Positions 14,249 through 32,999 of a stretch of DNA of 64,000 nucleotides are shown one piece after another; the stretch's first letter is position 1; each line of letters begins with the position of its first letter. The translations under genes were made by a program, and so were the position numbers. The notes under the pieces are model-generated. The model did no database searches. It worked only from the letters and a program-made list of their open reading frames with translations, and was not told the DNA's origin. Source of the stretch: Desulfatibacillum alkenivorans DSM 16219 (lineage in GTDB: Bacteria > Desulfobacterota > Desulfobacteria > Desulfobacterales > Desulfatibacillaceae); the NCBI RefSeq assembly GCF_900142135.1, contig NZ_FQZU01000005.1:62001-126000 (forward strand). The letters are read 5' to 3'.

Positions 14249-16723
14249 ATGCCCGAAATTTTGGATCAGGAACAACTTGAAAACGCATTAAGGGATAACC
14301 ATCCTGAAAACGCCAGGCTGGAAGAGCGGATAAGGGAACTGGAAGCTGAGAACCAATCCTTGCAGTCTAAGCTAATCGAAAAGCAAAAAAAGGAGTTAGC
14401 CGGCCTGGAGAGCGAAGCCAAGTTTCAGGCCATGTTCAATCAATCCGGAGTGGGTGTGGCTTTGTTCAACCTGCAGGGTAAGTTTGTAGAAGCCAATCCG
14501 GCCATTGTGGATCTATCCGGGTATTCCGCGGAAGAGTTGAATCGTATGAGCTTTAGCGACATCACCTTTCCGGAAGACCGGGAAACCGGTGTGAAGCAGT
14601 TTTTGGACATGCTGGAAGGAAAAATCAGCCGCTATACGGTGGAGAGAAGGTATCGCCATAAGGACGGCTCGACCATATACGGCATTTCCCAGATTTCCAT
14701 GGTGCGTATTCCTGGTTCTCCGGAGCCATTTGTCATGGCCCAGGTTGTAAATATTTCAGAGTTTAAGGCCATACAGAGGGAACTCCGGGAGAAAGAAAAA
14801 AAGCATAAACTGGTCATGGATGCTTTGGGCTTTGGTCTATGGGATTGGGACATTGCAGGGGGAACTGTATACTATAATCCTGCATGGGCCGCCATCGTGG
14901 AAGAAGAGGCCGTTGATCCCGCATACGAATCCTGGGAGTCAAGGATCCATCCTGACGACAGGGACAGGGTTTTGAATTCTCTAAACAACCATTTGCTGGG
15001 TTTAACTCCGGTCTGGTTGGAAGAGCACCGTTTGAAAACCTCCAAGGGGCGTTGGAAGTGGGTGAAAGGCCAGGGCAGGGTGGTGGAGCGGCTGAAAAAC
15101 GAGGCGCCGCTTAGAATGATCGGAACCATGGCTGACATCAATGAACGAAAGCAAGTCGAAAACACCCTGTACAAAACCACTCGGATCCTGGAAGAAACCA
15201 TCCAGCAGGCGCCTTACGCCATGTTTATAATGGAGGGCTCGGTTGGAAACGCCAATCTTTTGATCGCCAATGAAATGGCGAGAGGTTTTATGAATCAATT
15301 CGCAGCAGAGGACGCTGGCGGCCGGCCGCCCGATCCCACGGAATTGGGCTGCCATTTGTATTCGTATATTGACGGAAAAGAAATTACATCTGAGCGTAAA
15401 CCCTTAAATCGGGCGCTGGCCGGCGAAAGCATCAAGAATGAGCGGTTTTATGTCCTTGATGCGCAAGGCGAAAAAATTCCCATGGAAATCAATGCTTTTC
15501 CCGTCTATGGAAAAAGCGGGAATATCGTGGCCGTCCCCGTCACTTTGTTCGACATTTCCAAAACTCTGGAGGCTGAAAAAGACCGGCTGCAAATGCACAA
15601 GCTCGAGGCTGTCGGCACCTTGGCCGGGGGCATTTCCCATGACTTCAATAATATTTTGAGCATCATAATCGGGCACGCCGAAATCGTATCGGATGAAGTC
15701 TCCAAAGACGGCCAGGCCTATCAGAGCATAAATGCCATCCTTGAGGCATGCTTGCGGGCCAGGGACGTGGTCAAACAATTGCTGGATTTCGCCAGAAAGG
15801 CCGAAATCGACCTCAAACCCATGGCTGTGACGCCAGTAATACAGGAGTCCCTGACCCTGCTGCGCTCCTCCATTCCTGCAAATATAGAAATCAAGGCGCA
15901 ACTGACGGCTAAAAACGATGTGGTCATGGCTGCGCCTCCCCAGATCAAGCAGGTGCTCGTCAACCTGTGCACCAATGCCAGTCAGGCCATAAAAGGGCGG
16001 GGTGAAATCAAGATTTCAACCGATAATCTGGAGTTAAGCTCGCCGTGGCCCGGATGGGGTGAGGACGCCACGCCGGGAGCCTGCCTGCGCCTTATGATCG
16101 AAGATTCAGGGGAGGGCATGGATCCCGCCATCGCCCATCGCGCCCTGGAGCCGTACTTCACGACAAAGGACGTGGGCAAAGGAACTGGAATGGGGCTCCC
16201 CGTGGTTCACGGCCTCATCAAGTCCATGGGCGGATTCATGAGAGTAAGCAGCGGGCGTAAAAAAGGGGTGAAGGTGGAAATCATCCTGCCTCTGGCCAAG
16301 GTTAAAAACCCGGCCAAAACAGTTGCTGCCAAGGAACGCCCGGCAAGAAAAGCGATGAATGTTCTTGTTGTGGATGATGAAAAGGCCTTGATCGCCACCC
16401 AAAAGGTGATGTTGAAGAGGCAGGGCTATGACGTGGTCGGCGAAACCGACGCCTTAAAAGCCCTGGAGATCTTTCGCACTAATCCCGGGCAATTCGACTT
16501 GGCCATCGTGGACATGAGCATGCCCGGAATCAATGGGGATGCGTTCGCCAGAGAGTTGAAAAAACTTCGGCCTGACATTCCCATCATTCTGGCCACCGGC
16601 TATTCCGACGAAGCGACCATGAAAAGAATCAGGAGCCTGGAAGTGGATGTGGTGATAAACAAGCCCATGACAAGAAGCGATTTATCCCAAGCCGTCAATG
16701 CGGCCTTGAAACGGCATGCCTAA
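14249..16723 (+). CDS. PAS-domain hybrid sensor histidine kinase with C-terminal receiver
   Basis: The 824-residue protein has no transmembrane helix. The order is: coiled coil (8-55), PAS 1 (about 55-175; MFNQSGVGVALFNLQGKFVEANPA), PAS 2 (about 185-305), PAS-like segment 3 (about 315-440), phosphoacceptor domain (GGISHDFNNIL, His464), HATPase (about 550-685, with GEGMDPAI and GKGTGMGLPVVHGL), and a receiver domain (about 705-820, phospho-acceptor Asp755 in AIVDMSMPGINGD, Lys near KPMTR). It should sense a cytosolic signal, autophosphorylate and pass phosphate to its own receiver; no DNA-binding output is attached. Its stop overlaps that of the convergent kinase gene by four bases. Confidence 0.9.
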   Translation: MPEILDQEQLENALRDNHPENARLEERIRELEAENQSLQSKLIEKQKKELAGLESEAKFQAMFNQSGVGVALFNLQGKFVEANPAIVDLSGYSAEELNRMSFSDITFPEDRETGVKQFLDMLEGKISRYTVERRYRHKDGSTIYGISQISMVRIPGSPEPFVMAQVVNISEFKAIQRELREKEKKHKLVMDALGFGLWDWDIAGGTVYYNPAWAAIVEEEAVDPAYESWESRIHPDDRDRVLNSLNNHLLGLTPVWLEEHRLKTSKGRWKWVKGQGRVVERLKNEAPLRMIGTMADINERKQVENTLYKTTRILEETIQQAPYAMFIMEGSVGNANLLIANEMARGFMNQFAAEDAGGRPPDPTELGCHLYSYIDGKEITSERKPLNRALAGESIKNERFYVLDAQGEKIPMEINAFPVYGKSGNIVAVPVTLFDISKTLEAEKDRLQMHKLEAVGTLAGGISHDFNNILSIIIGHAEIVSDEVSKDGQAYQSINAILEACLRARDVVKQLLDFARKAEIDLKPMAVTPVIQESLTLLRSSIPANIEIKAQLTAKNDVVMAAPPQIKQVLVNLCTNASQAIKGRGEIKISTDNLELSSPWPGWGEDATPGACLRLMIEDSGEGMDPAIAHRALEPYFTTKDVGKGTGMGLPVVHGLIKSMGGFMRVSSGRKKGVKVEIILPLAKVKNPAKTVAAKERPARKAMNVLVVDDEKALIATQKVMLKRQGYDVVGETDALKALEIFRTNPGQFDLAIVDMSMPGINGDAFARELKKLRPDIPIILATGYSDEATMKRIRSLEVDVVINKPMTRSDLSQAVNAALKRHA

Positions 16724-18690
16724 AGGTTTTCGCTGGGTTCAGGCTGTATGGGTTCATAAGGCAGCCTGATGACAAACCGGGCGCCCTGGCCGAGCGAGGT
16801 GTCCACATGCATGGTTCCCCCATGGTTGTCGGTAATGATGAAATAGGAAACCGAGAGCCCCAGGCCGGTCCCCGCCCCCGGAGGTTTGGTGGTGTAAAAC
16901 GGCTCAAAAATTCTTTTTCGGATGTCCTCATGCATTCCCGGTCCGTTATCCTGCACTTCTATCCTGGCAAATCCCGGCTCCGGCCGCACCCTAAGAATGA
17001 TTTCCTTTATGCCGGCGTCGTCGACGTCCGTCTCGCACAATGCCTGGGCGGCGTTTTTCAGCAGGTTGAAAAAGACCTGTTGAATCAGGTTGCCCTCGCA
17101 CAGAACCTCCGGCGTGCTCAGGTCGTACTCCCGGATGATCCTGATCTTTCTGAAGTCGTAATTGGTTTTCAGGTCGAAATCGCTGGCCGAAAGCTCCACC
17201 ATGTTGTCCAATAGCTCCATTACATTATGTCTGGAGTACTCCTGAGTGGATTTTCTGCTGAAGCTGAGCATGTTGGAAACCACGCGGGCGGCCCGAATTC
17301 CGGACGTGCGAACCAGGTCCAGAATCCTGTTCACCTCGCGCAATTCCAGATATTTTTTCAGGCCCGCCATGGTGATTCCGGACTCCTCCGCAGCCGCCTG
17401 ATTCTTGGACATTTCGCTGTTCAGGCGGGTTTGGGCCACCTGGATGTTTTGGACAATGCCAGCCAGAGGATTGTTTATTTCGTGCGCCATGCCCGCAGCC
17501 AGCCCGCCGATGGAAACCATTTTCTCCGATTGAATCATCATTTCTTCAATTTTAACCCGGCGGGTTACGTCGTCCAGGCGAATGACCGCGCTTTCGTTTC
17601 CATCCATGGCTATAGGGTACACGATGAGGTCGCAGGTTAACATCCGGCCGCTCCAGTGAAAGGTGATTCGTTTGGAAAACTGGCCCTTGCGCTTTTTAAC
17701 CGCCTCTTTAATCTCCTCAACCAATCCTGAAATTTGAGGCAGCACGTTTTCCAGTCTGCGGCCCACGGCGTCCGAAGCCTTTATGCCTGACATGGACTCG
17801 GTTTCCTTGTTCCACAGATTGACGAATCCGCCCTTATCCACCCCCACAAGAACGGAAGGCATGGAATCCAGGATGCTGTTCAGGAAGATTCTGGTTTTAT
17901 TTAACTTTTCCCTATTGCTCTGCAACTCCCGGTACTGGTCCTGGATGCGGCGATAAGACTCTTCCAGGTCTCGGGACATTTCATTGAAGGCCATGGAAAG
18001 GTCGCCTATTTCATCCAGTTCCGATACATCCACCTGGCCGCCAAGGTCGCCCTGGCGTATATTGTCCATGGCGTCCCTCAGACGGGTGATAGGCTGAGTT
18101 ATGCCTTTGGAAAGCAACAAGTTGAGAAAAAGGCCGACGCAGCCCAAAACCGACAGCATCATGGCAATGCTCAGCAACGAGAAGTAGTTATGCTCTCTCA
18201 GCACCTCGGACAGGTCGTATATAATGGTAATATAGCCAATATGTTCGCCTACTGCGTCGATGGTTCGGGTGAACTGCAGGGCTTTCAGGCCGCCGAAAGT
18301 CATTTGCCGAATGTCGGTGGCATGCGCGGGGCCGACTAGCCGGGCCGGAGGGATGAGCGGACTTAACAAGGGCAGGTCGTCTGAAGCCAGCAGTTGTCCG
18401 CGTTTGTCGTAAACCGAAATATCCAGGATGCCGGGAATATCGCTCATTTGATTGGTGCGAATCTTAATCGCTCTGACGCTGCGCTCAAAAATTTCGTTGG
18501 CCAGCGGCTCCCGGTCTCGTTCCACCAAAGTGCGGAGAATCGTGTCCACCTTGCCCATGGTGGAGTTAAGCCTCCGCTGCTGCATGGGAATTTGTACGGC
18601 GACGAAAATCAAGGCGGCGATAATGGAGGTCAGCAGGATGGCGCCATTGACTTTGCGGCGAATGGTTGATTTCAGTCGTGGATCTTTCAA
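16720..18690 (-). CDS. Membrane sensor histidine kinase (HAMP-PAS-HisKA-HATPase)
   Basis: In this 656-residue protein a transmembrane helix (about 14-34), a periplasmic sensor region (about 35-165) and a second helix (about 167-190) lead into a HAMP domain (ITRLRDAMDNIRQGDLGG…) and a coiled coil. A PAS domain follows (about 280-390; LNSILDSMPSVLVGVDKGGFVNLWN), then HisKA with AAGMAHEINNPLAG (His403) and an HATPase domain ending FYTTKPPGAGTGLGLSVSYFI. It lies 48 bases downstream of a periplasmic binding-protein gene on the same strand, so the two probably form an operon in which the binding protein presents a ligand to the kinase. No response regulator gene is adjacent on this strand. Confidence 0.9.
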   Translation of the reverse strand: MKDPRLKSTIRRKVNGAILLTSIIAALIFVAVQIPMQQRRLNSTMGKVDTILRTLVERDREPLANEIFERSVRAIKIRTNQMSDIPGILDISVYDKRGQLLASDDLPLLSPLIPPARLVGPAHATDIRQMTFGGLKALQFTRTIDAVGEHIGYITIIYDLSEVLREHNYFSLLSIAMMLSVLGCVGLFLNLLLSKGITQPITRLRDAMDNIRQGDLGGQVDVSELDEIGDLSMAFNEMSRDLEESYRRIQDQYRELQSNREKLNKTRIFLNSILDSMPSVLVGVDKGGFVNLWNKETESMSGIKASDAVGRRLENVLPQISGLVEEIKEAVKKRKGQFSKRITFHWSGRMLTCDLIVYPIAMDGNESAVIRLDDVTRRVKIEEMMIQSEKMVSIGGLAAGMAHEINNPLAGIVQNIQVAQTRLNSEMSKNQAAAEESGITMAGLKKYLELREVNRILDLVRTSGIRAARVVSNMLSFSRKSTQEYSRHNVMELLDNMVELSASDFDLKTNYDFRKIRIIREYDLSTPEVLCEGNLIQQVFFNLLKNAAQALCETDVDDAGIKEIILRVRPEPGFARIEVQDNGPGMHEDIRKRIFEPFYTTKPPGAGTGLGLSVSYFIITDNHGGTMHVDTSLGQGARFVIRLPYEPIQPEPSENL

Positions 18691-18738
18691 AATATTTCCA
18701 AGTAAAAACAGGCTGCAGCTAACCCGAGGGAGAAGTCA

Positions 18739-19869
18739 TTACCTGATGGTCATATAGTACATTGGCTGGTTATTTTCAAACCTAAGTATGACGATGGGCT
18801 TAATCGGGTCGCCAAACTGGTTAAAGGAGATGTTTCCCGTCACCCCTTCATAACCCATTGTGGCCGCTATAGCGTCCCGGATAGCCGCCTTATCCATAGT
18901 TCCGGCCTTGTTTATGGCATTGACGATCACCATAAGCGAGTCGTGGGCCAAGGGCGCCAGGCTGATTTTCACTTGGAACCCGTCTTTGTTATATTCTTCC
19001 AAAAAGGCTTTGCCTTTTGGGTTGGGCTGGCCTGCATGCCACAGGTCGGAAAAATAATGTCCGTTCACTGCGCTGCCGGCGTATTCCGTCATAAGGTAGT
19101 TCCAACCGTCCGCTCCAAGAAAGGTTGATTTAACGCCCATGTTTTGGGCCTGACGCAAAATATATCCGGAATCCCTGGGGTAGCCCGGCACGAAAACCAC
19201 CTCCGGCTGCAGGCTTTTAACCTTTTCCAGTATCTGGCTGAAATCCGAAGCGTCCTGCAAGTAATCGCCTTCCCAAAGGACTGCGCCCTTTTTATTGAAT
19301 TGATCGATGAAAAAGGCCGCCAGGTCGCGGGAGAACTGGGAGTTGGCATTGGTCAGCACGACAGCTGTTTTTGCGTTCAGGCGTTCAGACGCAAAATCAG
19401 CCAAAGCTTTTCCGGAAAACTCGTCTGAAGCGCACACTCTAAATATATAGTCGCCGATTTTTGTTAATGCAGGATTGGTCGAGGCGGGGCTGATCATTGG
19501 AATCTTCGCTTCCTGCATCAGGTGGGCAATGGCCAGGGAATGTGCGCTCCAACTGGCGCCGACCACCGCGGTCGCCCCATCCTGGATGGCTTTTTTCCCG
19601 GCCGTCAGGGAGCCCAGAGAAGTGCTTTGGTTGTCGTATTCCAGCACCTCAAGAGGTTTGCCCAACACCCCCCCCTGGCGGTTGATCCGTTGGCAGGTCC
19701 AGCGCAAAGCCTCAAAGGCCTCCTTGTCCATGGGGGCTGCGGCGCCGGTTTGGGCGAAAATAGCCGCTATCTTAACGCTTTCGCCCGTCTGAGCGATTCC
19801 AAGGGATGTGCGCCCAGCGAGTAGGATCAGGAGTATTAATACGAATATCTTGCCGCCTGCTTTTATCAT
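18739..19869 (-). CDS. Periplasmic ligand-binding protein, branched-chain amino acid (LivJ/Peripla_BP_6) type
   Basis: The 376-residue protein has an N-terminal signal sequence (KIFVLILLILLAG…AQT) and the receptor-family fold: VKIAAIFAQTGAAAPMDKEAFEALRWTCQRINRQGG, then AVVGASWSAHSLAIAHLMQEAKIPMISPASTNP and the later domain-crossing segments. The longest frame begins at 20142 inside the giant gene, but that extension lacks protein character. The ATG at 19869 starts the signal peptide, so it is chosen. No permease or ATPase genes flank it; instead a histidine kinase follows 48 bases downstream. It more likely serves ligand sensing than uptake, though it may also feed a transporter encoded elsewhere. 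Confidence 0.88.
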   Translation of the reverse strand: MIKAGGKIFVLILLILLAGRTSLGIAQTGESVKIAAIFAQTGAAAPMDKEAFEALRWTCQRINRQGGVLGKPLEVLEYDNQSTSLGSLTAGKKAIQDGATAVVGASWSAHSLAIAHLMQEAKIPMISPASTNPALTKIGDYIFRVCASDEFSGKALADFASERLNAKTAVVLTNANSQFSRDLAAFFIDQFNKKGAVLWEGDYLQDASDFSQILEKVKSLQPEVVFVPGYPRDSGYILRQAQNMGVKSTFLGADGWNYLMTEYAGSAVNGHYFSDLWHAGQPNPKGKAFLEEYNKDGFQVKISLAPLAHDSLMVIVNAINKAGTMDKAAIRDAIAATMGYEGVTGNISFNQFGDPIKPIVILRFENNQPMYYMTIR

Positions 19870-19969: not shown

Positions 19970-22900
19970 TTAGTTCTTTTTGGCTTGCCCAAATAGTTCA
20001 AGCGCAGCCAGCCCGAACAACAGCGCAGCCAGCGTCTTGGCGCCCGAGCCGAAAGGCTTGGCAGGCCTTGCGGCGTCCACGAAACAGCCGCCTCCGCCGC
20101 CGCCGTCAGCCACGCCGATGGAATTGGAGCCTGATCCCGCATTGGAACCGCTGGAGCCCGGAGGGGAGGGCGGACGATCTTCGTCCGATACCGCCCAGGC
20201 GACCCTATCGATCATCCGGGAGATCGTTCTGGCAGCCTTGGACAACAGTCCGGGCTCTTCGTCTGCATCTCCTTTGCCCACGACGGCGTAAATAAATGCG
20301 CTTACGGGCAGCTTGACTGTGAGCGGCGCTCCGGTGTCGTTTTTAACCCAGTAGCCGACATACGGCTGCATCACCGTGGTTTCCACATAACCGTCCGGGT
20401 CGGCCTTGCGGGTCTGAGGCTCGTAGTAAAACAGGTTTCTGTCCTTGAGCGGGTTGTCCGCATTGGCCGAATCCTGCCGGTAGAAGGTTTCTCCGTCCAC
20501 GGAGCTTTCCACCTGAGTCCAGTACAGGCTTGTGGTGAAGGGATTGCCTATCAGGTTCCAGCCGGGCTGCAGGGTGGTGTAATAATCCTCGGTCGAGTCC
20601 ACATGCAGGCCTCTTGCCTCCACCTCTTTGGCGTAGCGGGAGATGACCCAATAAGCCTGGCACGGTCCGAACGGGAATTTGTCGTCAAATCCGTTGACGT
20701 TGCCCTCCAGGTAATACTCTTCGGGATCTTCCGTATACTGGGCCAGAGGATCGAATCCGAACAGGCGCCACTTGGAGTCATCGTACTCGTCCAGATTATC
20801 CGGATCGCTGAGAATTTCCATAATGGAATCCATATCCGCAGCGTAAGCCGGGAAGCTGATCAGCCTGTAATCCTCCACCTCGGTTCCGCCGGTTAATTGG
20901 GTTGTAAATTCCGTGGGCTTAGCCAGGGTGTAAAGCGAAAGGTGGGCCAGAGGCACAGTCACCGTGTCGCCTGTAATTACGGCGCCCGGAACGTAAACCC
21001 ATCTGCCAAGTTCCGTGTCGTAAGTAAAGACAAAGAGCTCGTCCGTGGGAACGGCGCTGTTATTGGGGAAGGCCAGCGACGCCGGAATGGCGAAGGTGGT
21101 TCCCGAAGGTCCTATTTCCACAACCGGGCTGCTCCGTTCTTCCATATAAGGCTGACCCGCGTCCACCTGGCTGATGGTGGGGGTAATGACGGAAGAAGTC
21201 GATCCTACGGGAATGCTGAAGCTCAGGCCGTTCAGATCGCTGTCGGGCTCGTTGACGGTGAGTGTGGCGCCTTCTCCGGCGTTAACCTGGCCGCCGTTGA
21301 CCAGCAGCGTCGCCTCAATGTAGTGGACGTTGAACATCCCTGAAGTCAGTGTAAAGCCCAAGGAATCCGTGACTGTCAATTGGGTGCGTCCCGAGGACAA
21401 AGGCATGAAGGTGAAAGTCCCGGCCCCGGCGTCCAGACCGGAAACTTCGCCGATGGTCTCTTCAATCACATCCACGCTGTACGGCGGCAGACCCCCTTCA
21501 ATCCGGCAGGCGATTTCCACCGTCGTGGTTACGGGCGCCGCAGCCCCGGAGTAAGTGACCATGATGGCCGGGCTGCCCTGTGCGGGCGCCAGTTCCAGGG
21601 CGGGAACCACGGTGACGTCCAACACGCCGGAACTTACGCTGTTGGCGCCGTCCGAGGCCAGGACCGAGAAGGCCGCCGTCCCCGTATCGCCGGATTGGGG
21701 CGTCCATTCTACAACGCCGTCGGTCGGAACCGGGATTTCCATACCGTCAGGACCGGAGCCCAGGGAGTACTGCAAGGCCGCCGTTTCTTCATCATAGCTG
21801 TAGAATTCCAGGGAGAACAGCCGGTTCACCATGGCTCCGTAAGGCTGAGACTCCACCGAAGCGGGAGCTTCCGGCGGATCGTTGACCGCGGTTACGGTGA
21901 AAGTGAACTGCTGAGTCACGGTCCGGCCGTCCGCGGCCATAGCCTCTATGATTACCGTGTACGTTCCGGCTTCATCGTCATACAAGGGATTGTAGTAGAT
22001 TTCGCCGGTGGTTTCCGAAATGGTCATGCCGGCCGGCTGATTGGATCCGTCCGCAAAGGCATAACTGGTAATGGGGCCGGAAACCGCAGGCTGGTATGTG
22101 TATATGTCATTTTCATCCACCGCGCCGCCCGGGGTGGAGGTAAAAACCAGGGCTGCCTGGGTTTCGTAGCAGCCCGGGTCGTAATACCCGCCAATGGGAC
22201 GGCTGGCGTTATCCAGGTCGTCCGTCGGGAAAGCTACGCCCGTAACATTGGCGATGCTGGGGTCGATGGAGTCCACGGACGGGGACGTTTCCTCCAGATG
22301 GTAATCGCCGTTGGCTGCATCCACAAACAGGGGATCCGTATTCCAATCCCCTTCATGGCTGAGGGGGCCGGAGTAGTTGGCCTGGCTGTTTCCGGATGCG
22401 TTATTATGATAGATGGCCAAGGTTGAGCTGGCGCCATCCCTTCCCACGCCCCACATGCCGTCGGCAATTATATTATAGGCGATTTTGGGAGACGTATCGC
22501 TGGAGAAAACGCCCGTGCGGAAACCGACAATGGTGTTGTTGACGATTTCAGGAGAAACGTTCACCTCGTTCGCCGCGGCCCAGACGTTAATTCCTATGCT
22601 TGCTGTCTGATTATCCACAAGCAGGTTGTTCTCGACCCGGTTGCCCATCCCCGTCGCGGAGATTGACAGAGCGTCCAAAGCGCTGCTCGAATCGCTGGTA
22701 ATCCTGTTTTTCTTGATGAGCACGTTTTCTGCATCGTACTGCAGCAGGATGAGTCCTTGCGTCAGGTCCCCGCTTTGTATGTCAAATCCATCCAGGGTGA
22801 AGTCCTTGACTCCGTTAAGGTGGACGCCCCATCCATTGCTTCCGTTAAAGGTGAGGATGGTGGAGTCCGGGCCTTCGCCGCTGATGTGAATTCCGCTGTG

Positions 22901-25900
22901 GCGCTCTTCAACCATCAGGCTTTCTGTGAGGGTGAAGGTTCCTCCATGCACCAGCAGGGCGTCGCCGGCGGTTAAGGCGTCCAAGGCGTCTTGGATGGAT
23001 TCGCCGGCGTACACATGGTTGACCACATTGTCGCGGATAGTGTAGGTGACGCTCTCTCCGCCCATGTTGCCTGCAAAATCCTGGAATACCGCGGTGGCCG
23101 TCACCACGGCGTTGGCCGGCCAGGGAGCTTCCGGGGTGTAGCTGAAGATTACGCTGGTCAAATCCGAGTCGTCCACAACCAGGGTGTTGGTGATGACCAG
23201 AGGGTAAGTTGTCTGGTCTGACGTCATGGTCAGGATTACAGAACTGGAATCCACGCCGAAGTCATCGCCTATGGTGAATCCGAATTCGCCTCCTGGCAGG
23301 TTGGCGTCATAACTCCAGGATTCGATGTAGGGGCTGTTCTCATCATAGAACCATGTTTCATAACAGCCAATATCGTATCTGGAGCCGTCGGGCCTTAAGG
23401 CGCCGTCCAGGTCCGTCGCCGGAAATTCCACGCCGGCGGTTGCGGCTGCGGAACTCTCCAGGGCGTCCACGCAGGGAGAGATTTCCTGCAAATGGAAGTC
23501 CTTGCCGGCGGCATCCACAAACAACGGATCTTCGTTGATGTCCGTGGCGTGCGTGATGGTGGAGTCGTAGTTGGCGCCGTTTCCGTACACGCAGTTGTAA
23601 TGCACGGTTACATTGTAATCCGCGTATATGCCTTCACTATTAAAGGCGATGATGTTGAAGGCAATCAGCGGATTGGCGCTGTTTGCGCATTCAATGCCGT
23701 TGATAAGGTCGCTCAGGGTGTTGTTGACGATTTCAGGGGCCGTGGTGAAGCCCGTCAGGTAAACGCCTGTCCCGGCATTGTAGTCGCTGGTCATGATGTT
23801 GTTGGCGATCCGGTTGCCGCCGCCGGAAGCGCCCACCCACAACAGCGGGGTTCTTGCAGAATGCGTAACGCCGAAGACGTTGCCTTCAATGAGGACGTTT
23901 TCACTAAGGCCTTGCAGATACAGCAGGGTCGCATCATACATCGTGCCTATGGAGAAACCCTTGATCGTGAAGCCGGAAACGCCGTTGATGCTGAAGGCCC
24001 AACTCTGGCAATCAATGATTGTATTTTTCGGTCCGTCGCCTAGCAGTGCGATTCCGCTGTGCTCCGGGCCAACCGTGATTGAGCCGTCGGTGAGAGTGTA
24101 CTCGCCGGCGTTCACATGCACTGTGTCTCCCGAAGTGGCGCCGTCCAGGGCGTCCTGGATGGAATCCCCTTCATAGACCTCGTGGGTTACAGGGCCCCGA
24201 ACCGTATCCACTATCACGTAAGGATTCGGGTCCGTGGGGTTGGCCAGAGCGTCGTCCGCATAGATGGTGGCTGTAATCACCATGCTCGCGGCAAAGGGAT
24301 TGTCCGGAGCATAAGTTACACTAACGTCGTCAGGGTAGGTATCGTCTATGCTTAAATAACTCGTAACATCCGTCTGCACGCCGCCCTGGGTTTGCAGCAG
24401 CACTTGGATGGAAGATGTATCCACTTCCGTCGGATCTTGCAGCCTGAATTTGAAGTGGGATGGATATAGCGCCCAAGACGTGACGTCCGGCCCTGTTACG
24501 GAGTCGCACTTGGTCCAGGGGCCGTGGTGAAGGACCGTGTCCGCGGGGTTGCCCGCCTCGTCCATAGCTACGATATGCAAATAATTGATATTGTAGTCGA
24601 ACAGGATATTGCCCGGAGGATTAGAATCAACTTCCGGCGTTCCGGCCAAAGGATTGGTGGATTCGTTATCGTCCACAATCCAGTAGTAAGTTACATCGCC
24701 GCAGTTGTCCGACCCGTAGCTCCAGGTGAGTGTGGTTCCCGCGTTGCTTGTGCAGGTGTCCGTGAGCACGGAGGTTGCGCCCAGGACGGGGTTGGTTGGA
24801 GGTGTGAGATCTCTGACCCAGGGGCCGATGTGCATGGCTTCGGAAGCCGTGTTTCCGAGTGCGTCCACTGCGATCAAATGCAGGTAATTGTCGCCTTCCA
24901 CAATGGGGGTGGAGGTGGGAGGCGTTTCCGTCATTGTCCCGTAGGTCAAAGGATCGGTGTCCGGGGCGGCGTCCACTATCCAATAATACCCGGCCAACTC
25001 GCAATCGTCCGAACCTGCGGCCCAGCCGATGGCGATGATTCCGTTGGCCGTGCACGTATTTGTCGTCACGGAGGAGGACAGGAACCTGGGATTTTCAGGC
25101 GGCGCCTCATCCCGGCGCCAGGGGCCGAAGTGGACGGTCGAGCCGGCCAGTTGTCCTGACTCGTCCCTGGCGCGCACATGCAGGTAATTGTCGCCCACGG
25201 ACAAGTCAATGGATGCGGGCAAATCTCCATAGTCGCCGTTAGTCGCGGCGGTTAAGGGAGAATTGCTCACCAGCCAGTAGTAACCGTCCAGTTTACAGTC
25301 GTCCGTGCCGGGCGTCCAGGTCAGGGCTGTGCTGGCTGCATTGGTGCACGCGCCCGTGACGACGTCCGATCCGATCAACTCCGGGTTCTCCGGCAGATGG
25401 AGGTCTCTTTTCCAGGGGCCTATATGCATGATGTTGTCAGACAACCGGCCCACAGAGTCCTTGGACCTGACATGGAGGTAGTTGTCTCCGGACTCCAGGG
25501 CCATTTCCGTCGGCAGGCCGCCGTAATTTCCGCTGATGCTGGGATCGGTGTCCGGCGCGCCGTCATGGATCCAGTAGTATCCGTTCAGGTCGCAGTCGTC
25601 CGCGCCGTCGGTCCAGCCCAGGGTGACGCTGGTGCCCAGGGTGCATACCCCGGTGAGCACGCTGTTGCTATAAAGCGTCGGGAGTGTGGGCGGAGCGTCG
25701 TCCATTCTCCAGGGGCCGATGTGGAGCGTGCCGGCGGCAAGCTGTCCGGCTTCGTCTTTAGCCCGAACATGGAGATAATTGAGTCCCGGCATAAAGGAAA
25801 TATTGCTTGGGGGCGTACCGTCCAATACTCCCGCCAAAGACGGGTCCGTATCAGCTATGCCGTCCACAACATAATAGTATCCGTCGATTTCACAGTCGTC

Positions 25901-28900
25901 CGACCCCATATTCCACAACAGGTTGACGCCGGTTTCCAGAGTGCACGTTCCGGTCACGACGTCCAGGGATGTCAGTTCCGGGTTTAAGGGCAGGGCGGCG
26001 TCCTTTTTCCAGGGGCCGATGTGGAGAGTTTCCTCCGCAAGCTGTCCCAGTCTGTCCACAGCCACGATGTGGTAATAATTGTCGCCGTTGGAAAAGCCGA
26101 TATTGGCGGGCAGTTCGGTAATTAAGACTCCATCAGCGTAGGGATCGGAGTCGGGGCTCGAGTCTATCTTATAATAGTAGCCCTGCAGGGCGCAGTCGTC
26201 CGAGCCCGGGGTCCAGGTCAAGGCTGAGCTGGAACTGGTCATGCACGTTCCGGTGGCTACGGAGGTGGAATCCAGAACCGGGTTGGTCGGCAGGGCTGCG
26301 TCCACGGTCCAGGGACCGATATGGAGGGGATCCACCGGGGTTTGCCCCAGGCTGTCCTGGGCCAGGACGTGCAGGTAGCTATCGCCTTCAGGCAAAGCGA
26401 TGGCTGCGGGAAGCGTATCCGTAAATACGCCGCCCAGAGAAGGATCTGCCACGGGATTGGAGTCTATGATGTACCAGTAGCCCTCCAGGTCGCAGTCGTC
26501 CGAGCCTGGGGTCCAGGTAAGGTTCGTCGTTGACGCCAGGGTGCACGTGGCTGTGGGTACGGTTGTGGCCGTCAGTTCCGGGTTGACAGGCAGGGAGACG
26601 TCCTTGCGCCACGGGCCGATGTGGAGGATTTCCGAAGCCGTTTTTCCGGCCTCGTCCTTTGCCAGCACATGCAGCCAGTTGTTTCCGTCGCTGAATGCAA
26701 CCTCTGTGGGCAGGGCGCCGAAATCGCCTTCGGCGCTCGGGTCCGTGCCTGTTGCGGAATCCACAATGTAGTAGTAGCCGGCCAGAGCGCAGTCGTCCGA
26801 ACCTTCGTTCCAAGATAAATAGGTTCCGTCATCCAATACGCAGGAGCCCGTAATTACGGAAGTATTAGCCAGGATCGGGTTCTCGGGCGCGGCGCCGTCG
26901 CGCTGCCACGGGCCCAGGTGCAGGACCTCCGTTGCAAGCCGGCCTGCGGAGTCCATGGCGATTACATGCATGTAGTTGTCGCCCACGGCAAGGTTAAAGC
27001 TGGCCGGCAGGGCGCCAAAATTTCCGTCAATGGTCGGGTCGGTATCGGAGATTTGGTCCACATACCAGTAGTAACCGTCGATGCCGCAATCGTCTGTTCC
27101 GGCGTTCCAGGTGATATCGATGTAAGTGCTGTTCAGGCAGGTGCTGATAGGCTGACAGCAGCTTGCCATTTCCGGATTGGTCGGGGGAGCGTCATCCATT
27201 TTCCAGGGGCCGATATGCAGGATTTCGGAAGCAAGCTGCTCCGCGCCGTCCTTTGCCTGGACATGAAGGTAATTGTCTCCGGCCGTGAACGAAATGTCCG
27301 AAGGCAACGAGCCGTAAGTCCCTTCGCTTGTGGGGTCTGTGGAGGGCGAGGAGTCCACAATCCAATAGTAGCCGTCAACTGCGCAGTCGTCCGAGCCGGG
27401 GGTCCAGGTCAGGTAGGTCATCGTCTCCACGGTACAGGTTCCCGTGGACACGCTTGCGGCGTCCAACACCGGATTTACCGGGAGTTCGCCGTCGCCTTTC
27501 CAGGGGCCGTAATGCAGGGGCTGGCCCGCGCTGTTTCCAGCCTCGTCCTTGGCGATCACATGGAGATAGGTATCCACGCCTGGGCTGATGGTCAGCGTCT
27601 CAGGCAGGGCGCCTACCAGGGTTCCGTATATTTCAGGATCCGTGGAAGGCTCGTTATTGATCAGGACGTAATATCCTTCCAAAGCGCAATCGTCCGAACC
27701 AGCCGTCCAGTTTAAAGAGGTGGATTCAGACGTTGTACACGTATTGGTCATTATTGTAGTGGAGTCCAAGACCGGGTTGGCAGGCTCCGCCCCGTCCACT
27801 TTCCACGGCCCGATATGCAGGATTCCGGAAGCCAGCTGTCCGGCTTCGTCCATGGCCTGGACATGCAAATAATTGTCGCCGCCGCTGAGCGTGAGAGCCA
27901 AGGGCAGTTCGCCGAAAGATCCGCCCGAAGTCGGGTCGGTGCCGGGAGAGCTGTCCTGGATCCAATAATAACCGTCTATGGCGCAATCATCTGCGCCGGG
28001 CGTCCAGGCCAGATTCGTATATGTAGCATTCGTGCATTCGCCTACGTTGACAGTTGTGGAGTCCAGAGTTGGGTTGCTCGGCCGATTCGCGTCTTTGAGC
28101 CACGGCCCGAAATGCAAAATCTCGGAAGCGGAGTTGAAGTCGTCCTTGGTTACCAAATGGAAGTAATTGACTCCCGTGGACAGGGTGTAAACGCTGGGCA
28201 GGGCTGAACTCTGGGTCGCCGCCCCGGAAAGTTCCGGATCCGTATCCGGGGTGGAGTCCATAACATAGACGTATTCCACGGTTCCGCAGTCGTCGGAGCC
28301 CGAACTTTGCCAATTAAAATACACGTTGGCGTCCGTCACGCACGTATTGGTGATAACCGTAAAATTGTCCAGGACCGGATTGACCGGCAGTTCGTCGTCA
28401 ACGTACCAGGGGCCGATGGTCAGGGTTTCGTCCGCCAGCATGTGGCTGTTGTCCTTGGCCCTGATATGCAGATAGTTGGCGCCTTTACTTAGGCTAATGG
28501 ATGTGGGGGGCTCGGAGGAGTATGTGTCGGACGTCGTGACGCTGCCGGTGGGATCGGAGTCCACATAGTAGAAGTAGCCGTACATACCGCAGTCGTCCAC
28601 GTTGACGTACCAGGACAGGGAGGTGCTTGTATCCTGGACGCAGGTGTCGGTCATCACGGAAGTGGAGAGCAGGGTCGGGTTGTCGGGCGGGGTCGTGTCG
28701 TAATTCCAGGATCCATAGTGCAGGGCCGAAGCTGCAAGGTTGCCGTCCATGTCTTCCGCAATAATGTGCAAATAATTGTCCCCGGAACTGAGCGTAATGG
28801 CGTTGGGCGGATTTTCCGTAAAAAAAGGCGATCCGGTTGTGGGGTCCGTGTCGGGGAGGGAGTCTAATACCCAGTAATATCCAGCGATGCCGGATTCATT

Positions 28901-31819
28901 GTCCAATCCTAATGTCCAAGTGATGACCACCGATGAATCAGTGGTGCAGATGCCGGGAGCAGGATCGCTTTCATCCAGAATGGGATTGGTGGGATTGGTC
29001 TGGTCCATCTCATAGGCGCCCATGTCCCAATTGGAGTTTTGGGGGCGGCTCAGGTTGCGGGCGTCTATGGCGACCGTATTTGTAATGGCAATGGCGTCAA
29101 TGGCCGTGGCGCCGGAGGACAGGCGGAAGTCGCCGCTTCCCCGGTTCCAAAAGGGTTGTACGTCGGAAATATTGGCGCCCATGTCCGTGACTTGGTGCAA
29201 TTGGCCGCTTCCGTTGTCGGAAAGGACGTTGTAAGCCGCATAAGCGGCGCACGAGTTGCACGCGACCACGTTTATGCCGTACCCGTCAAAGCCCTGGATG
29301 ATGTTGAAATTAAATTCCACAACGTCGCTGTACAAGCTCGCAGCCCGAATGCCGTCGCCAGATCCGCCGTACAGCGTGTTGTGATAGATTGCAGGGGCGA
29401 AGGCGGCCAATCCGCTCCCCGTAAGCGAGATTCCATTCTCCAGGGCGTAGGTCCCGCTGTTTAACTCCGCAATGATATTGTTCGTGATTTGAGGGCTGGC
29501 GACTCCGCCCTGCGCCTGATCCACCGAGATGCCCGTGGTGCAGTCGAAAATCCGGTTGCCGTCCACCTCGGGGCTGCAGTCCTGAACGGCAATTCCCACC
29601 GTGCTCGCGGTTTCCACCGTGGAGGAAATTACGTTTTGAACGATGGAGTCGTTGTACGAGCCGTTGCCGTCGAAGATTCCGGTAAGCTGCTGATATAAGG
29701 AATCGCCGGTATAGTAGATTTTGTTCTGTGCAATTGTGTATTCCCCGTACATGGCGCTTCCGATGTAAACGCCGTATCCGGGGGCCACGGCCAAGCCGCC
29801 GTTGTCGTAAATGCGGTTTTGGTTAATGTCCACCAATCCCGAATTATGCAAGTACACGCCGTAAAGGCTGTTGTTGTAGATGTCGCAGTTATAGACCCAG
29901 TGGTCCTGTCCGCCGGAAAATTCAATGCCGTAATTATTATTTTTTATTGCACAGGCAGCCACGCCGCCGTAATAGGCGTTTTCAAATTTAAGGCCTGCGC
30001 CGGAGAAGTTTTCTATCGTGAGATTTTTGACCGACACGTTCATCGCTTGAATCTGGAGGCCATTGGTCCAGTAGCCGGCCCCCACACCGGAAATAAGTGT
30101 GGAATCCGGGCCAGCGCCGATAATTGTCAGGTCGTCGAAGTACCCGCCGGAAACATAATGTCCATCATCGGGCTCGATTCCTCCGTTGCCGCTCACTGTG
30201 TAAGCGCCCGCCTCTAAATGCAACTCAACCGATCCCGAAATGCTGCTGTTTGTGTTTATTTCGGTAAGAGCCGTGTACAGGGTGTTCCATGGGTTCGCTT
30301 CGGACCCGTCGCCTCCCTCAGGTACATAAGGAGCTACATATAATTTGGTGGGGGGCGGAGCAACGTACTCGTAGGCGCCTACGTCAAATCCTGCGTCCAC
30401 GGGCCGGGCGGTCCCTTCAATATCTTCAGTCACCGGATCGCCGCTTCCCGCCGGGATGAAATCAATGCAGGGCGAACCGCTTGACAGGCTGAAATCTTCT
30501 CCCGCGTAGTTCTTAAAAGAAGGATACCCATACATGTTATTGGTTTGTTCGATGAAGCCGTAAAAACTGTTGTAGACTTCGTATGTGATATTATAATCGG
30601 CGTATATGGTTCCTGACCCGGAGTTCAGGACAATTCCATAATAACTGGAGAAATAGGCCAAAATATTATATTGGACGTCGGCGGTTCCTGCGAAATTGGA
30701 AAATTCAACGCCGCTGCCGGAGCCCGTGGCGATGGTGTTATGGTAAATGACCGGGTTGAGGGTCCCCCCGTTTTCTCCGTTGAAGTAAATGCCGGAATAC
30801 ATGTCCGATGAAACTTCGGCGTAGATGAGGTTGTTGGTGATGGTGGGGGAGGCTTCCATGCCCGCTCCGCTGGTGCTGCAGGAGACGCCGTAGTAACAGC
30901 CCTTGATGATGTTCCTGTAAACGGCCGGGCTGGCGTCCACGATGGTTACGCCGTAAGTGTCTAACGAATAGGAATCCTGGATGATGTTATTATAAATTTG
31001 ATCCTGGGTGGTAGACCCCTGAATGTATATCTGATGTATCTGATAGCCGTCCCCTCCCGCGGGAATCCAGTTGTCGTGGATGGAATGGCCGCCGCCGCTG
31101 GCTCCGGTGATTTTTATGCCATAGGGGCTCATGCCGTTCCCGTTGTTATTGATGCCGCCGGATGAGGCGTTTCCGTAAATTTCGCAATTGGTGGATTCGT
31201 TCAGGATGACGCCCGCGGAGGTGTTGAAGGCCGCGACGCAGTCTCCGGTCACGGAGCCGTTGGTGGAGCCGGAAAACTCCACGCCCACGAGGTTGCCTGT
31301 GATTGTGCAGTTGACAACGCTTCCGTTATCGGCGCCGTTAAAAAAAACGCCCCGGCCGGAGGCATAACCCGCTATGCCCAAGGCTTCCACCGTGACATTA
31401 TCGCCCGTGACGATCATGGCGTCCAGCCACGCGGTTCCGGTATAGCCTTCAAACAGGGTGGTGGAAGGGTCGTCTCCCAATATGTGCAGGCTCGTGATGG
31501 CGCCGCCGTTGTCTTCAACCGTTAGGACCGTGTCAGGCTCATGCCCGTCATCGGTCGAGTACACTCCGGCAAGCAGGTTCAGGACGATATCGCCCGATCC
31601 GTTGGCGTTTAACCATGTGACCGCCGAATGCAGGCTGTTCCATGGCGTGGCCATGGCGCCGTCGCCGTCCACGGACGCGTTGGGATCGACGTAATAGGCG
31701 GTGGTGGTTGCCATGGCGCCGCCTGGCGCAATAATTGCCGCCAACATGAGGGTTAACAGCAGCAGCATAGCGTTACGAATATGGCCGAAATGACTGGATT
31801 TGCGGATGTATGTGCACAT
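19970..31819 (-). CDS. Giant exported beta-helix / Ig-like repeat protein with C-terminal sorting tail
   Basis: This single 3949-residue frame has a signal peptide (basic start, MLLLLTLMLAAIIAPGGAMA) and then two right-handed beta-helix modules (about 37-490 and 490-920; each opens YYVDPN or KLYVAP…NPWNTLYTAL and has many NNxI/YxN repeats). About 943-2440 hold 15 tandem Ig-like repeats of about 100 residues. Two further beta-helix modules start near 2543 and 2931 (each EGDSIQDALD or AGESIQDALD), followed by cadherin/He_PIG-like domains from about 3223. The C-terminus has a conserved-looking region (about 3630-3860), a GGGGGCFVDAARPAKPFGSG motif and one hydrophobic helix, which resembles a CFI-box-type sorting tail. 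It is probably surface-attached or secreted, an adhesin or carbohydrate-binding protein. AGGAG precedes the ATG. The reading frame is intact over 11.8 kb. Confidence 0.85.
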   Translation of the reverse strand: MCTYIRKSSHFGHIRNAMLLLLTLMLAAIIAPGGAMATTTAYYVDPNASVDGDGAMATPWNSLHSAVTWLNANGSGDIVLNLLAGVYSTDDGHEPDTVLTVEDNGGAITSLHILGDDPSTTLFEGYTGTAWLDAMIVTGDNVTVEALGIAGYASGRGVFFNGADNGSVVNCTITGNLVGVEFSGSTNGSVTGDCVAAFNTSAGVILNESTNCEIYGNASSGGINNNGNGMSPYGIKITGASGGGHSIHDNWIPAGGDGYQIHQIYIQGSTTQDQIYNNIIQDSYSLDTYGVTIVDASPAVYRNIIKGCYYGVSCSTSGAGMEASPTITNNLIYAEVSSDMYSGIYFNGENGGTLNPVIYHNTIATGSGSGVEFSNFAGTADVQYNILAYFSSYYGIVLNSGSGTIYADYNITYEVYNSFYGFIEQTNNMYGYPSFKNYAGEDFSLSSGSPCIDFIPAGSGDPVTEDIEGTARPVDAGFDVGAYEYVAPPPTKLYVAPYVPEGGDGSEANPWNTLYTALTEINTNSSISGSVELHLEAGAYTVSGNGGIEPDDGHYVSGGYFDDLTIIGAGPDSTLISGVGAGYWTNGLQIQAMNVSVKNLTIENFSGAGLKFENAYYGGVAACAIKNNNYGIEFSGGQDHWVYNCDIYNNSLYGVYLHNSGLVDINQNRIYDNGGLAVAPGYGVYIGSAMYGEYTIAQNKIYYTGDSLYQQLTGIFDGNGSYNDSIVQNVISSTVETASTVGIAVQDCSPEVDGNRIFDCTTGISVDQAQGGVASPQITNNIIAELNSGTYALENGISLTGSGLAAFAPAIYHNTLYGGSGDGIRAASLYSDVVEFNFNIIQGFDGYGINVVACNSCAAYAAYNVLSDNGSGQLHQVTDMGANISDVQPFWNRGSGDFRLSSGATAIDAIAITNTVAIDARNLSRPQNSNWDMGAYEMDQTNPTNPILDESDPAPGICTTDSSVVITWTLGLDNESGIAGYYWVLDSLPDTDPTTGSPFFTENPPNAITLSSGDNYLHIIAEDMDGNLAASALHYGSWNYDTTPPDNPTLLSTSVMTDTCVQDTSTSLSWYVNVDDCGMYGYFYYVDSDPTGSVTTSDTYSSEPPTSISLSKGANYLHIRAKDNSHMLADETLTIGPWYVDDELPVNPVLDNFTVITNTCVTDANVYFNWQSSGSDDCGTVEYVYVMDSTPDTDPELSGAATQSSALPSVYTLSTGVNYFHLVTKDDFNSASEILHFGPWLKDANRPSNPTLDSTTVNVGECTNATYTNLAWTPGADDCAIDGYYWIQDSSPGTDPTSGGSFGELPLALTLSGGDNYLHVQAMDEAGQLASGILHIGPWKVDGAEPANPVLDSTTIMTNTCTTSESTSLNWTAGSDDCALEGYYVLINNEPSTDPEIYGTLVGALPETLTISPGVDTYLHVIAKDEAGNSAGQPLHYGPWKGDGELPVNPVLDAASVSTGTCTVETMTYLTWTPGSDDCAVDGYYWIVDSSPSTDPTSEGTYGSLPSDISFTAGDNYLHVQAKDGAEQLASEILHIGPWKMDDAPPTNPEMASCCQPISTCLNSTYIDITWNAGTDDCGIDGYYWYVDQISDTDPTIDGNFGALPASFNLAVGDNYMHVIAMDSAGRLATEVLHLGPWQRDGAAPENPILANTSVITGSCVLDDGTYLSWNEGSDDCALAGYYYIVDSATGTDPSAEGDFGALPTEVAFSDGNNWLHVLAKDEAGKTASEILHIGPWRKDVSLPVNPELTATTVPTATCTLASTTNLTWTPGSDDCDLEGYWYIIDSNPVADPSLGGVFTDTLPAAIALPEGDSYLHVLAQDSLGQTPVDPLHIGPWTVDAALPTNPVLDSTSVATGTCMTSSSSALTWTPGSDDCALQGYYYKIDSSPDSDPYADGVLITELPANIGFSNGDNYYHIVAVDRLGQLAEETLHIGPWKKDAALPLNPELTSLDVVTGTCTLETGVNLLWNMGSDDCEIDGYYYVVDGIADTDPSLAGVLDGTPPSNISFMPGLNYLHVRAKDEAGQLAAGTLHIGPWRMDDAPPTLPTLYSNSVLTGVCTLGTSVTLGWTDGADDCDLNGYYWIHDGAPDTDPSISGNYGGLPTEMALESGDNYLHVRSKDSVGRLSDNIMHIGPWKRDLHLPENPELIGSDVVTGACTNAASTALTWTPGTDDCKLDGYYWLVSNSPLTAATNGDYGDLPASIDLSVGDNYLHVRARDESGQLAGSTVHFGPWRRDEAPPENPRFLSSSVTTNTCTANGIIAIGWAAGSDDCELAGYYWIVDAAPDTDPLTYGTMTETPPTSTPIVEGDNYLHLIAVDALGNTASEAMHIGPWVRDLTPPTNPVLGATSVLTDTCTSNAGTTLTWSYGSDNCGDVTYYWIVDDNESTNPLAGTPEVDSNPPGNILFDYNINYLHIVAMDEAGNPADTVLHHGPWTKCDSVTGPDVTSWALYPSHFKFRLQDPTEVDTSSIQVLLQTQGGVQTDVTSYLSIDDTYPDDVSVTYAPDNPFAASMVITATIYADDALANPTDPNPYVIVDTVRGPVTHEVYEGDSIQDALDGATSGDTVHVNAGEYTLTDGSITVGPEHSGIALLGDGPKNTIIDCQSWAFSINGVSGFTIKGFSIGTMYDATLLYLQGLSENVLIEGNVFGVTHSARTPLLWVGASGGGNRIANNIMTSDYNAGTGVYLTGFTTAPEIVNNTLSDLINGIECANSANPLIAFNIIAFNSEGIYADYNVTVHYNCVYGNGANYDSTITHATDINEDPLFVDAAGKDFHLQEISPCVDALESSAAATAGVEFPATDLDGALRPDGSRYDIGCYETWFYDENSPYIESWSYDANLPGGEFGFTIGDDFGVDSSSVILTMTSDQTTYPLVITNTLVVDDSDLTSVIFSYTPEAPWPANAVVTATAVFQDFAGNMGGESVTYTIRDNVVNHVYAGESIQDALDALTAGDALLVHGGTFTLTESLMVEERHSGIHISGEGPDSTILTFNGSNGWGVHLNGVKDFTLDGFDIQSGDLTQGLILLQYDAENVLIKKNRITSDSSSALDALSISATGMGNRVENNLLVDNQTASIGINVWAAANEVNVSPEIVNNTIVGFRTGVFSSDTSPKIAYNIIADGMWGVGRDGASSTLAIYHNNASGNSQANYSGPLSHEGDWNTDPLFVDAANGDYHLEETSPSVDSIDPSIANVTGVAFPTDDLDNASRPIGGYYDPGCYETQAALVFTSTPGGAVDENDIYTYQPAVSGPITSYAFADGSNQPAGMTISETTGEIYYNPLYDDEAGTYTVIIEAMAADGRTVTQQFTFTVTAVNDPPEAPASVESQPYGAMVNRLFSLEFYSYDEETAALQYSLGSGPDGMEIPVPTDGVVEWTPQSGDTGTAAFSVLASDGANSVSSGVLDVTVVPALELAPAQGSPAIMVTYSGAAAPVTTTVEIACRIEGGLPPYSVDVIEETIGEVSGLDAGAGTFTFMPLSSGRTQLTVTDSLGFTLTSGMFNVHYIEATLLVNGGQVNAGEGATLTVNEPDSDLNGLSFSIPVGSTSSVITPTISQVDAGQPYMEERSSPVVEIGPSGTTFAIPASLAFPNNSAVPTDELFVFTYDTELGRWVYVPGAVITGDTVTVPLAHLSLYTLAKPTEFTTQLTGGTEVEDYRLISFPAYAADMDSIMEILSDPDNLDEYDDSKWRLFGFDPLAQYTEDPEEYYLEGNVNGFDDKFPFGPCQAYWVISRYAKEVEARGLHVDSTEDYYTTLQPGWNLIGNPFTTSLYWTQVESSVDGETFYRQDSANADNPLKDRNLFYYEPQTRKADPDGYVETTVMQPYVGYWVKNDTGAPLTVKLPVSAFIYAVVGKGDADEEPGLLSKAARTISRMIDRVAWAVSDEDRPPSPPGSSGSNAGSGSNSIGVADGGGGGGCFVDAARPAKPFGSGAKTLAALLFGLAALELFGQAKKN
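24500..28990 (-). repeat. 15 tandem 300-bp coding repeats inside the giant gene
   Basis: A decayed CCAGGGGCCGATGTG-like string (coding HIGPW) recurs about every 299 bases from 24512 to 28700, fifteen times. Each protein unit reads NPxLDSTSV-TGTCT, TLTWTPGSDDC, GYYWIVDS, DTDP, GDNYLHVxAKDxAGQLA, LHIGPW. Repeats differ widely in sequence, so the array is old and not a recent slippage product. Repeat 1 lacks the second Cys, and repeat 7 has extra cysteines. Confidence 0.85.
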
Positions 31820-32262
31820 GGTTGAAGGCTCCTGGAAAGAGCTGCGTCTCCTTCCTAAGTAGAATTATGGAACGCCTGCCCGGCCCTAATTCTTCAAGAT
31901 ATTAAGAATCAAGAAAGAGGCAGGCTGATCGCCGATAATTACAATTGGCTTGCTAATGTTTTTCTAACAAACCGCGCCTCCTTTCCTTACAAAAAGGCAG
32001 GAGGAGTTATTTCGTCAAATAAATGGTTTAGGGTTTTACCTCGATGAAAAAATATAGCAAAAACGGTTAGGGGAAAACAAGACGTAATGGAAAAAAGGAC
32101 GCAAGACTCTTTATAATTGCAGAAAAATTGACTCTTGAGCGTAGAAATACGATACAGAATGGATGGCATTTGGTTGGCTCTGTGATCTATTTCACAGCCC
32201 TTTCCCCAAGGGGCGCCGCCTTTTGCCCGCTATTCCCGCACTGTTTCCATAAGGAGTTGATC
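31820..32262. other. Upstream region of the giant gene
   Basis: These 443 A/T-rich bases hold no supported gene. They contain the giant gene's ribosome site (AGGAG at about 31830-31834, minus strand) and an inverted repeat CCTCCT…AGGAGG (31977-32004) with a CCTT/AAGG inner pair, about 160 bases before the giant gene's start. On the plus strand TTGACT (32128-32133) and GATACA (32151-32156) are 17 bases apart and could serve the small ORF at 32263. A sigma-28-like GCCGATAA occurs at 31931-31938 but has no matching -35. Confidence 0.5.
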
Positions 32263-32367: not shown

Positions 32368-32564
32368 AATTGGAGGGGATGCATTGAGTTTGAATGCGGG
32401 TCTATTCTAAAAACGGAAAGGAGAATCAATTTTATTGCATGAACAAACAACATGCGTTATGATCTTTCCATATATTTAAAAAAGTTCATTTCTACGGTCG
32501 TATATTGCTTGGGAAGGAATAGCCCCCGCATTCTTTGCGGGAGAGTCGTTGCCAGGAGGCGTCC

Positions 32565-32999
32565 ATGACAATGGTCCGTTTGATTTACACCAGCCAGTTG
32601 AGCGAAAATTGCGGGGTTCCTGAAGTGCGGAGTATTCTTAAAGCCGCTCGCGGCAACAATCCCAAGATCGGCGTAACAGGTCTTTTGTGCTATGATCCAA
32701 GCCATTTCATGCAATGGATCGAGGGCGAGCGCAACACCATTAGCCGTCTTTACCATTCCATTGCGGCGGATCCTCTCCACGCCAACGTGGTCTTGTTGGA
32801 TTACGGGGAGATTTTCCGGCGGGAATTCGCCAAGTGGTCCATGGCATACGTTAATCCCAGTGATGTGAGCCAAGACATCATCTTTCGTTATTGCTCCGGC
32901 AATGAGTTAAATCCCTATTCCATGTCCGCGGAAGCCGCCCGGAACTTCCTGATTGACATCGCCAATGTGAAGCGCTCCTCTCTTGATAGCGACATTTAG
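32565..32999 (+). CDS. Stand-alone BLUF-domain blue-light photosensor
   Basis: The 144-residue protein is almost wholly a BLUF domain (residues 3-95): VRLIYTSQLSEN, ILKAARGNNPKIGVTGLLCY, FMQWIEG, and AKWSMAYV. The residues that make the flavin photocycle are all present at the positions known from BlrB-type proteins: Tyr8, Asn32, Gln50, Trp91 and Met93. No output domain is attached; the C-terminal 45 residues would form the capping helices. It should bind FAD and signal through protein contact. The ATG at 32565 has AGGAGG seven bases upstream and is preferred over a start 30 bases earlier. No antirepressor or cyclic-di-GMP gene is adjacent. Confidence 0.9.
   Translation: MTMVRLIYTSQLSENCGVPEVRSILKAARGNNPKIGVTGLLCYDPSHFMQWIEGERNTISRLYHSIAADPLHANVVLLDYGEIFRREFAKWSMAYVNPSDVSQDIIFRYCSGNELNPYSMSAEAARNFLIDIANVKRSSLDSDI

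Follow-up and report, generated by a model that had tools for sequence, protein, structure and literature searches.

The window analysed here, a stretch of 64,000 nucleotides from Desulfatibacillum alkenivorans DSM 16219 (genome of 6.47 Mb in 102 contigs), carries one gene that raises a simple question: what is a single exported chain of 3949 residues for? A prior issue is whether the frame is real. The preliminary description had reported an intact frame of 11.8 kb, without giving its strand, and had named proof of an assembly artefact as something that would refute it. The frame lies on the minus strand and fills positions 19,970–31,819 exactly, with 3949 codons and no internal stop; its ATG at 31,819 stands 9 nt downstream of a probable ribosome-binding site, AGGAG (31,829–31,833, minus strand). 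In a second genome, Desulfatibacillum sp. MAG7, an orthologue (L048, on a contig corresponding to G001:C58, a genome ranked within Desulfatibacillum) encodes 1244 residues of the 3′ part before the contig ends. Across 1200 aligned codons the two proteins are 66% identical, with dN of 0.26, dS of 1.53 and dN/dS of about 0.17, and in the C-terminal domain identity reaches 79%. The 3′ third of the gene is thus under purifying selection, which excludes an artefact for that third and indicates a functional protein. A 4075-residue paralogue in the same genome (L022) has the same C-terminal part and tail.

The architecture, given here from the N-terminus with all coordinates on the minus strand, is that of a chain assembled from recognisable modules. 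Residues 1–38 (MCTYIRKSSHFGHIRNAMLLLLTLMLAAIIAPGGAMA; 31,706–31,819) form a putative signal peptide, identified by eye in the translation from a basic n-region, a hydrophobic core and an A-M-A cleavage-like site near residue 38. Two beta-helix modules with choice-of-anchor Q ends follow: module 1 (residues 39–485; 30,365–31,705), matching Pfam Beta_helix and NF041518 at 29.7 bits each, and module 2 (residues 486–939; 29,003–30,364), matching Beta_helix at 65.1, NosD at 30.6 and NF041518 at 35.1 bits. Next comes an array of 15 units (residues 940–2438; 24,506–29,002), and beyond it module 3 (residues 2544–2824, approximately; 23,348–24,190), also with a choice-of-anchor Q end (NF041518, 29.6 bits; Disaggr_assoc, 24.9 bits), and module 4 (residues 2933–3222; 22,154–23,023; Beta_helix, 41.3 bits), which holds the best NosD stretch of the whole protein (2969–3162). 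Putative Ig-like spacers, assigned from their position between modules and matching no family, precede modules 3 and 4 (residues 2439–2543, 24,191–24,505; residues 2825–2932, 23,024–23,347). Residues 3223–3637 (20,909–22,153) contain a He_PIG match (39.8 bits), a Big_9-like match (22.5 bits, under the cut-off of 23.6) and further Ig-like domains. The chain closes with an unnamed domain, here called WNLIGNP (residues 3638–3842; 20,294–20,908), a linker that becomes rich in Gly, Ser, Pro and Asp towards its end (residues 3843–3911; 20,087–20,293) and a hydrophobic tail (residues 3912–3949; 19,973–20,086). The preliminary description had anticipated much of this – an exported, modular protein with a signal peptide, two beta-helix modules on either side of a 15-unit array, cadherin-like domains (the He_PIG and Big_9-like matches) and a hydrophobic tail behind GGGGGCF – and translation and profile searches bear it out.

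Each kind of module is already known. The cut-off of the choice-of-anchor Q model NF041518 (25 bits) is passed by modules 1, 2 and 3, with 86.2 bits for the whole protein, and that of the right-handed beta-helix model PF13229 (25.9 bits) by modules 1, 2 and 4, with 100.2 bits for the whole; the NosD copper-maturation model TIGR04247, with a whole-length cut-off of 300 bits, gives 39.7 bits, in module 2 only. The protein therefore resembles choice-of-anchor Q and beta-helix surface proteins, but differs in carrying four such modules in one chain, split by the array. What is new is this combination, together with a genus-restricted, cysteine-bearing version of the array that obeys a rule at its ends, and the mapping across an order of the tail forms to which its C-terminus belongs. 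The earlier view that there is no characterised homologue also held: a PDB sequence search found no matching chain for modules 1–2, for the module 3–4 region or for the C-terminal domain.

Our preferred answer to the opening question is that the protein is anchored at the surface of Desulfatibacillum cells and serves there as an adhesin or binds glycans; we regard this as probable. The signal peptide, the intact and constrained frame, the four beta-helix modules and the array all favour it. The array would act as a long stalk that holds modules 1 and 2, the putative distal binding part, far from the cell, while modules 3 and 4, the Ig-like domains and the WNLIGNP domain would lie close to the anchor; a carbohydrate ligand, which the preliminary description had already suggested, is guessed at because of the beta-helix fold. 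Many lyases have beta-helix folds, and module 3 exceeds the cut-off of the Disaggregatase-related Pfam model (22.6 bits), so that a secreted enzyme – a polysaccharide lyase or a relative, with the array merely a spacer – has some appeal. We nonetheless judge it improbable, given that no PDB chain matches the beta-helix regions by sequence and that the profiles matched are generic Beta_helix and choice-of-anchor Q models.

A central feature of the proposed surface adhesin is the stalk. The array comprises exactly 15 units of 98–102 residues, with a mean pairwise identity of 45% (range 35–64%). The count given beforehand was exact; the label "Ig-like" holds in the broad sense, but the units are more precisely of the fibronectin-III (FN3) type. 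A profile in which they were pooled with cysteine-less relatives matches PDB chains of titin FN3 (E 3e-19) and chitinase A1 FN3 (E 2.4e-5), and an AlphaFold model of one unit has strands A–G at a mean pLDDT of 97.2. The matches that Foldseek gave for that model are sandwiches of the FN3 and PKD kinds (TM about 0.4–0.6), none under E 0.001, and Pfam fn3 gave no match in the whole-protein search. On the profile matches and the model we class the units as FN3-type beta-sandwiches.

The cysteines of these units are striking in their regularity. Cys19 is present in all 15; a second cysteine, at position 36 or 37, occurs in units 2–15 but not in unit 1, so that 14 units hold both, 17–18 residues apart. 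Directly after unit 15 stands one more, Cys2438, and a further, vicinal pair lies in unit 7. Mean column identity across the array is 56%, yet one cysteine column is invariant and the other exceeds 90%. In the orthologue's last unit Cys19, Cys36 and the cysteine after GPW are all kept, whereas neither cysteine occurs in related units from other members of the family and order. When 395 genomes of the phylum were searched with a profile of the cysteine-type unit, two gave matches; both belong to Desulfatibacillum, which makes one of the 245 genera sampled.

What could maintain such a pattern? In FN3 topology the B–C loop points towards the preceding unit and the A–B turn towards the following one. 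In the AlphaFold unit, strand B spans positions 24–30, with Cys19 before it and Cys36 after it, and since the strand lies between them the two are predicted to occupy opposite poles of the fold: Cys19 in the A–B hairpin at the C-terminal pole, Cys36 in the B–C loop at the N-terminal pole. This placement suggests disulfides between units: each Cys19 would bond to the Cys36 of the unit that follows, or in unit 15 to Cys2438, to give a covalently stapled, stiff rod. The counts close exactly (15 Cys19 against 14 Cys36/37 plus Cys2438); the unit lacking Cys36 is the first, which has no unit before it; and the retention of all three cysteines at the end of the orthologue's array, the conservation of the two columns and their joint absence from related units point the same way. 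The obvious alternative, a disulfide within each unit that stabilises the FN3 fold in this lineage, draws on the 14 units that hold both cysteines; but it would leave Cys958 and Cys2438 unpaired, and it would have to bridge strand B, which if extended sets the two positions roughly 20 ångström apart (by arithmetic on the AlphaFold strand limits). We think it unlikely. Because pairing between units uses every Cys19 and Cys36/37 and Cys2438 as well, and pairing within units leaves two orphans, the former is preferred.

A third possibility is that no intrachain disulfides form at all, and that the cysteines serve as metal ligands or as links from one chain to another. Sulfate reducers are expected to live in reducing, sulfide-rich habitats, and regular spacing of cysteines along a rod would suit such roles. 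Against this, each unit offers only two cysteines and no other His or Cys is conserved in the cysteine-bearing units alone, His76 and His92 being conserved in cysteine-less units as well; this explanation seems to us even less likely than the disulfide within units. Disulfides between units are then the likeliest single reading of the cysteine pattern, from sequence and model, though we hold it tentatively and at somewhat less than an even chance: only unit 1 and the end of the array are informative places, VKOR was sought in the genome and is absent, and odd numbers of cysteines are frequent in the genome's other proteins with this kind of tail, among which disulfides are not evidently general.

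Comparison with known giant adhesins shows what would be at stake. In adhesins of the RTX type, such as SiiE and MhLap, the stalk is built of beta-sandwich extenders and its joints are stiffened by Ca2+ in the linkers (PMC7493085). The long tandem beta-sandwich stalk is shared, and stiffening of the joints is the principle proposed here; the differences are that RTX linkers use Ca2+, whereas our protein has regular cysteines at the poles of its units and a different, CFI-box tail at its C-terminus. The adhesin of Mobiluncus mulieris, with 7651 residues and many cross-linked Ig-like domains (PMC10619420), likewise combines giant size with serial, cross-linked Ig-like domains, but its demonstrated cross-links, a disulfide included, lie within domains, and it is not a Gram-negative CFI-box protein. 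If disulfides do join the units, they would be another way of stiffening a bacterial stalk, doing what Ca2+ does at the joints in RTX adhesins, and striking for being found in sulfate-reducing anaerobes.

The WNLIGNP domain between the last Ig-like domains and the linker deserves separate mention. A search with the domain's own sequence (to which a few letters of the orthologue had been added), used solely to collect homologues, found 80 loci in Bacteroidota, Ignavibacteria, Armatimonadota, KSB1 and other groups, often some 250 residues from the C-terminus of long proteins. An alignment of 54 sequences, which like the model was made from exact translations, shows an invariant P, WN and P, and AlphaFold predicts the domain at a pLDDT of 85.9. 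It matches no Pfam or NCBIfam model, has no PDB relative in a profile sequence search and finds no credible fold match (E 0.1 or worse throughout, probability at most about 0.4). Here, then, is a domain of long proteins in several phyla that lacks a matching curated family or solved relative.

How would such a protein be held at the cell? Its last residues, GGGGGGCFVDAARPAKPFGSGAKTLAALLFGLAALELFGQAKKN, follow the pattern of CFI-box proteins (NF041763): an exported protein in which CF[IV] follows a Gly/Asp/Ser-rich linker near the C-terminus, here GGGGGGCFVDAA, 38 residues from the end. The CFI-box resemblance proposed in the preliminary description stands in kind, although this protein's tail by itself does not prove it, scoring 12.8 bits alone and 13.9 in the genome search against a cut-off of 15.9. 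We adopt it because of the other tails: those of the paralogue and orthologue, and seven in the same genome that exceed the cut-off, a search that had been recommended at the outset. These seven frames end within 7–9 residues of the cysteine (for example CFIRSLKF, CFVKALK and CFIQTLMR). In all, at least ten proteins of this genome end in CFI-box tails, and a signal peptide can be recognised in most of them; this favours the anchored adhesin. One of them, L212 (G000:C83, from about 52,516 upwards, minus strand), is a protein of 4809 residues with the short tail CFIQTLMR. Another large exported protein, L023 (G000:C75; 3867–14,945, minus strand), has 3683 residues, beta-helix stretches and a C-terminus, CFAPGTPVLMADG...VLVHERC, that by eye resembles a Hint (hedgehog/intein-type) domain.

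Across the order, 49 of 146 genomes have NF041763 matches above the cut-off. The 56 distinct tails collected divide into 42 short ones (one or two of which may be chance frames), 11 with a stretch that resembles a membrane helix and three that are longer and lack a helix. A broader count from the DNA pattern GGCF[IVM]D[AST], with apparent hits in 88 of the order's 194 genomes, was dropped, most of its loci being a membrane segment (GGCFMDALAMIMLTVPIF) that we take to be part of the DctM subunit of TRAP transporters; GGCF[IM]D within this DctM-like segment (L144–L159, for example) inflates DNA-pattern counts of CFI-box tails. Most CFI-box proteins end 7–17 residues past the cysteine, whereas our protein continues from CFVDAA into a hydrophobic stretch and a basic end, as do the paralogue, the orthologue, L025 and L220. 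That 42 of 56 tails lack a membrane helix counts against the anchored adhesin, as does the fact that the giant protein's own tail is under the cut-off and ends weakly basic (GQAKKN); yet all 11 helix-type tails have a basic residue within the last six positions.

The layout recalls MYXO-CTERM, a tripartite tail in which a cysteine motif precedes a membrane helix and a basic end; in its proposed pathway the cysteine receives a lipid before myxosortase cleaves (PMC11980579). The giant protein shares the tripartite tail, and its genome shares a type II secretion gene, gspD (519 bits; cut-off 351). The differences are equally clear: the host lies outside Myxococcota, the tail matches neither MYXO-CTERM profile (TIGR03901, TIGR03382), and L025 alone among the tails scores at all, with 7.9 bits to TIGR03382 against a cut-off of 15.85. 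The genome's four CPBP proteins were considered as the cognate sorting protease and rejected, none reaching the cut-off of any myxosortase (Mrt) family, a point that also weighs against the anchored adhesin. By analogy the CFI-box tail may work like the MYXO-CTERM system, and we do not class it as a member.

In three relatives (L176, L184 and L248) the reading frame runs on past the CFI-helix-basic segment, first through a second stretch that looks like a signal peptide and then into another exported domain. In L176 (3–668, minus strand) Pfam identifies this domain as a multicopper oxidase; L184 (3756–4400, plus strand) has a barrel-like sequence with no Pfam match, and L248 (1–1518, minus strand) a He_PIG-containing protein. 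From their sequences the three are possible two-in-one exported polyproteins, and they agree with a helix inserted so that the N-terminal part lies outside. For the anchored adhesin we envisage that Sec exports the chain; that the helix and basic end of the tail retain it in the inner membrane; that it is then processed at the CFI cysteine or close by, which leaves it attached to the outside of the cell; and that the route to the surface is probably the genome's type II secretion system. We found no mention of the CFI-box in the literature searched. It is now directly testable: one genome holds both the short and the membrane-helix forms, and the three fusions predict topology and cut site.

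The neighbourhood of the gene offers no hint of function. Downstream on the same strand, after a gap of about 100 bp with no listed terminator-like site, lie genes for a Peripla_BP_6 substrate-binding protein and a HAMP/PAS histidine kinase (16,720–19,869, minus strand). Both are absent at the corresponding place on the orthologue's contig, so we rejected a function drawn from these neighbours, and their absence there counts, if anything, against the adhesin. Upstream and divergent is a gene (32,535–32,999, plus strand) for a BLUF protein, a blue-light FAD sensor, which is surprising in a presumed anaerobe.
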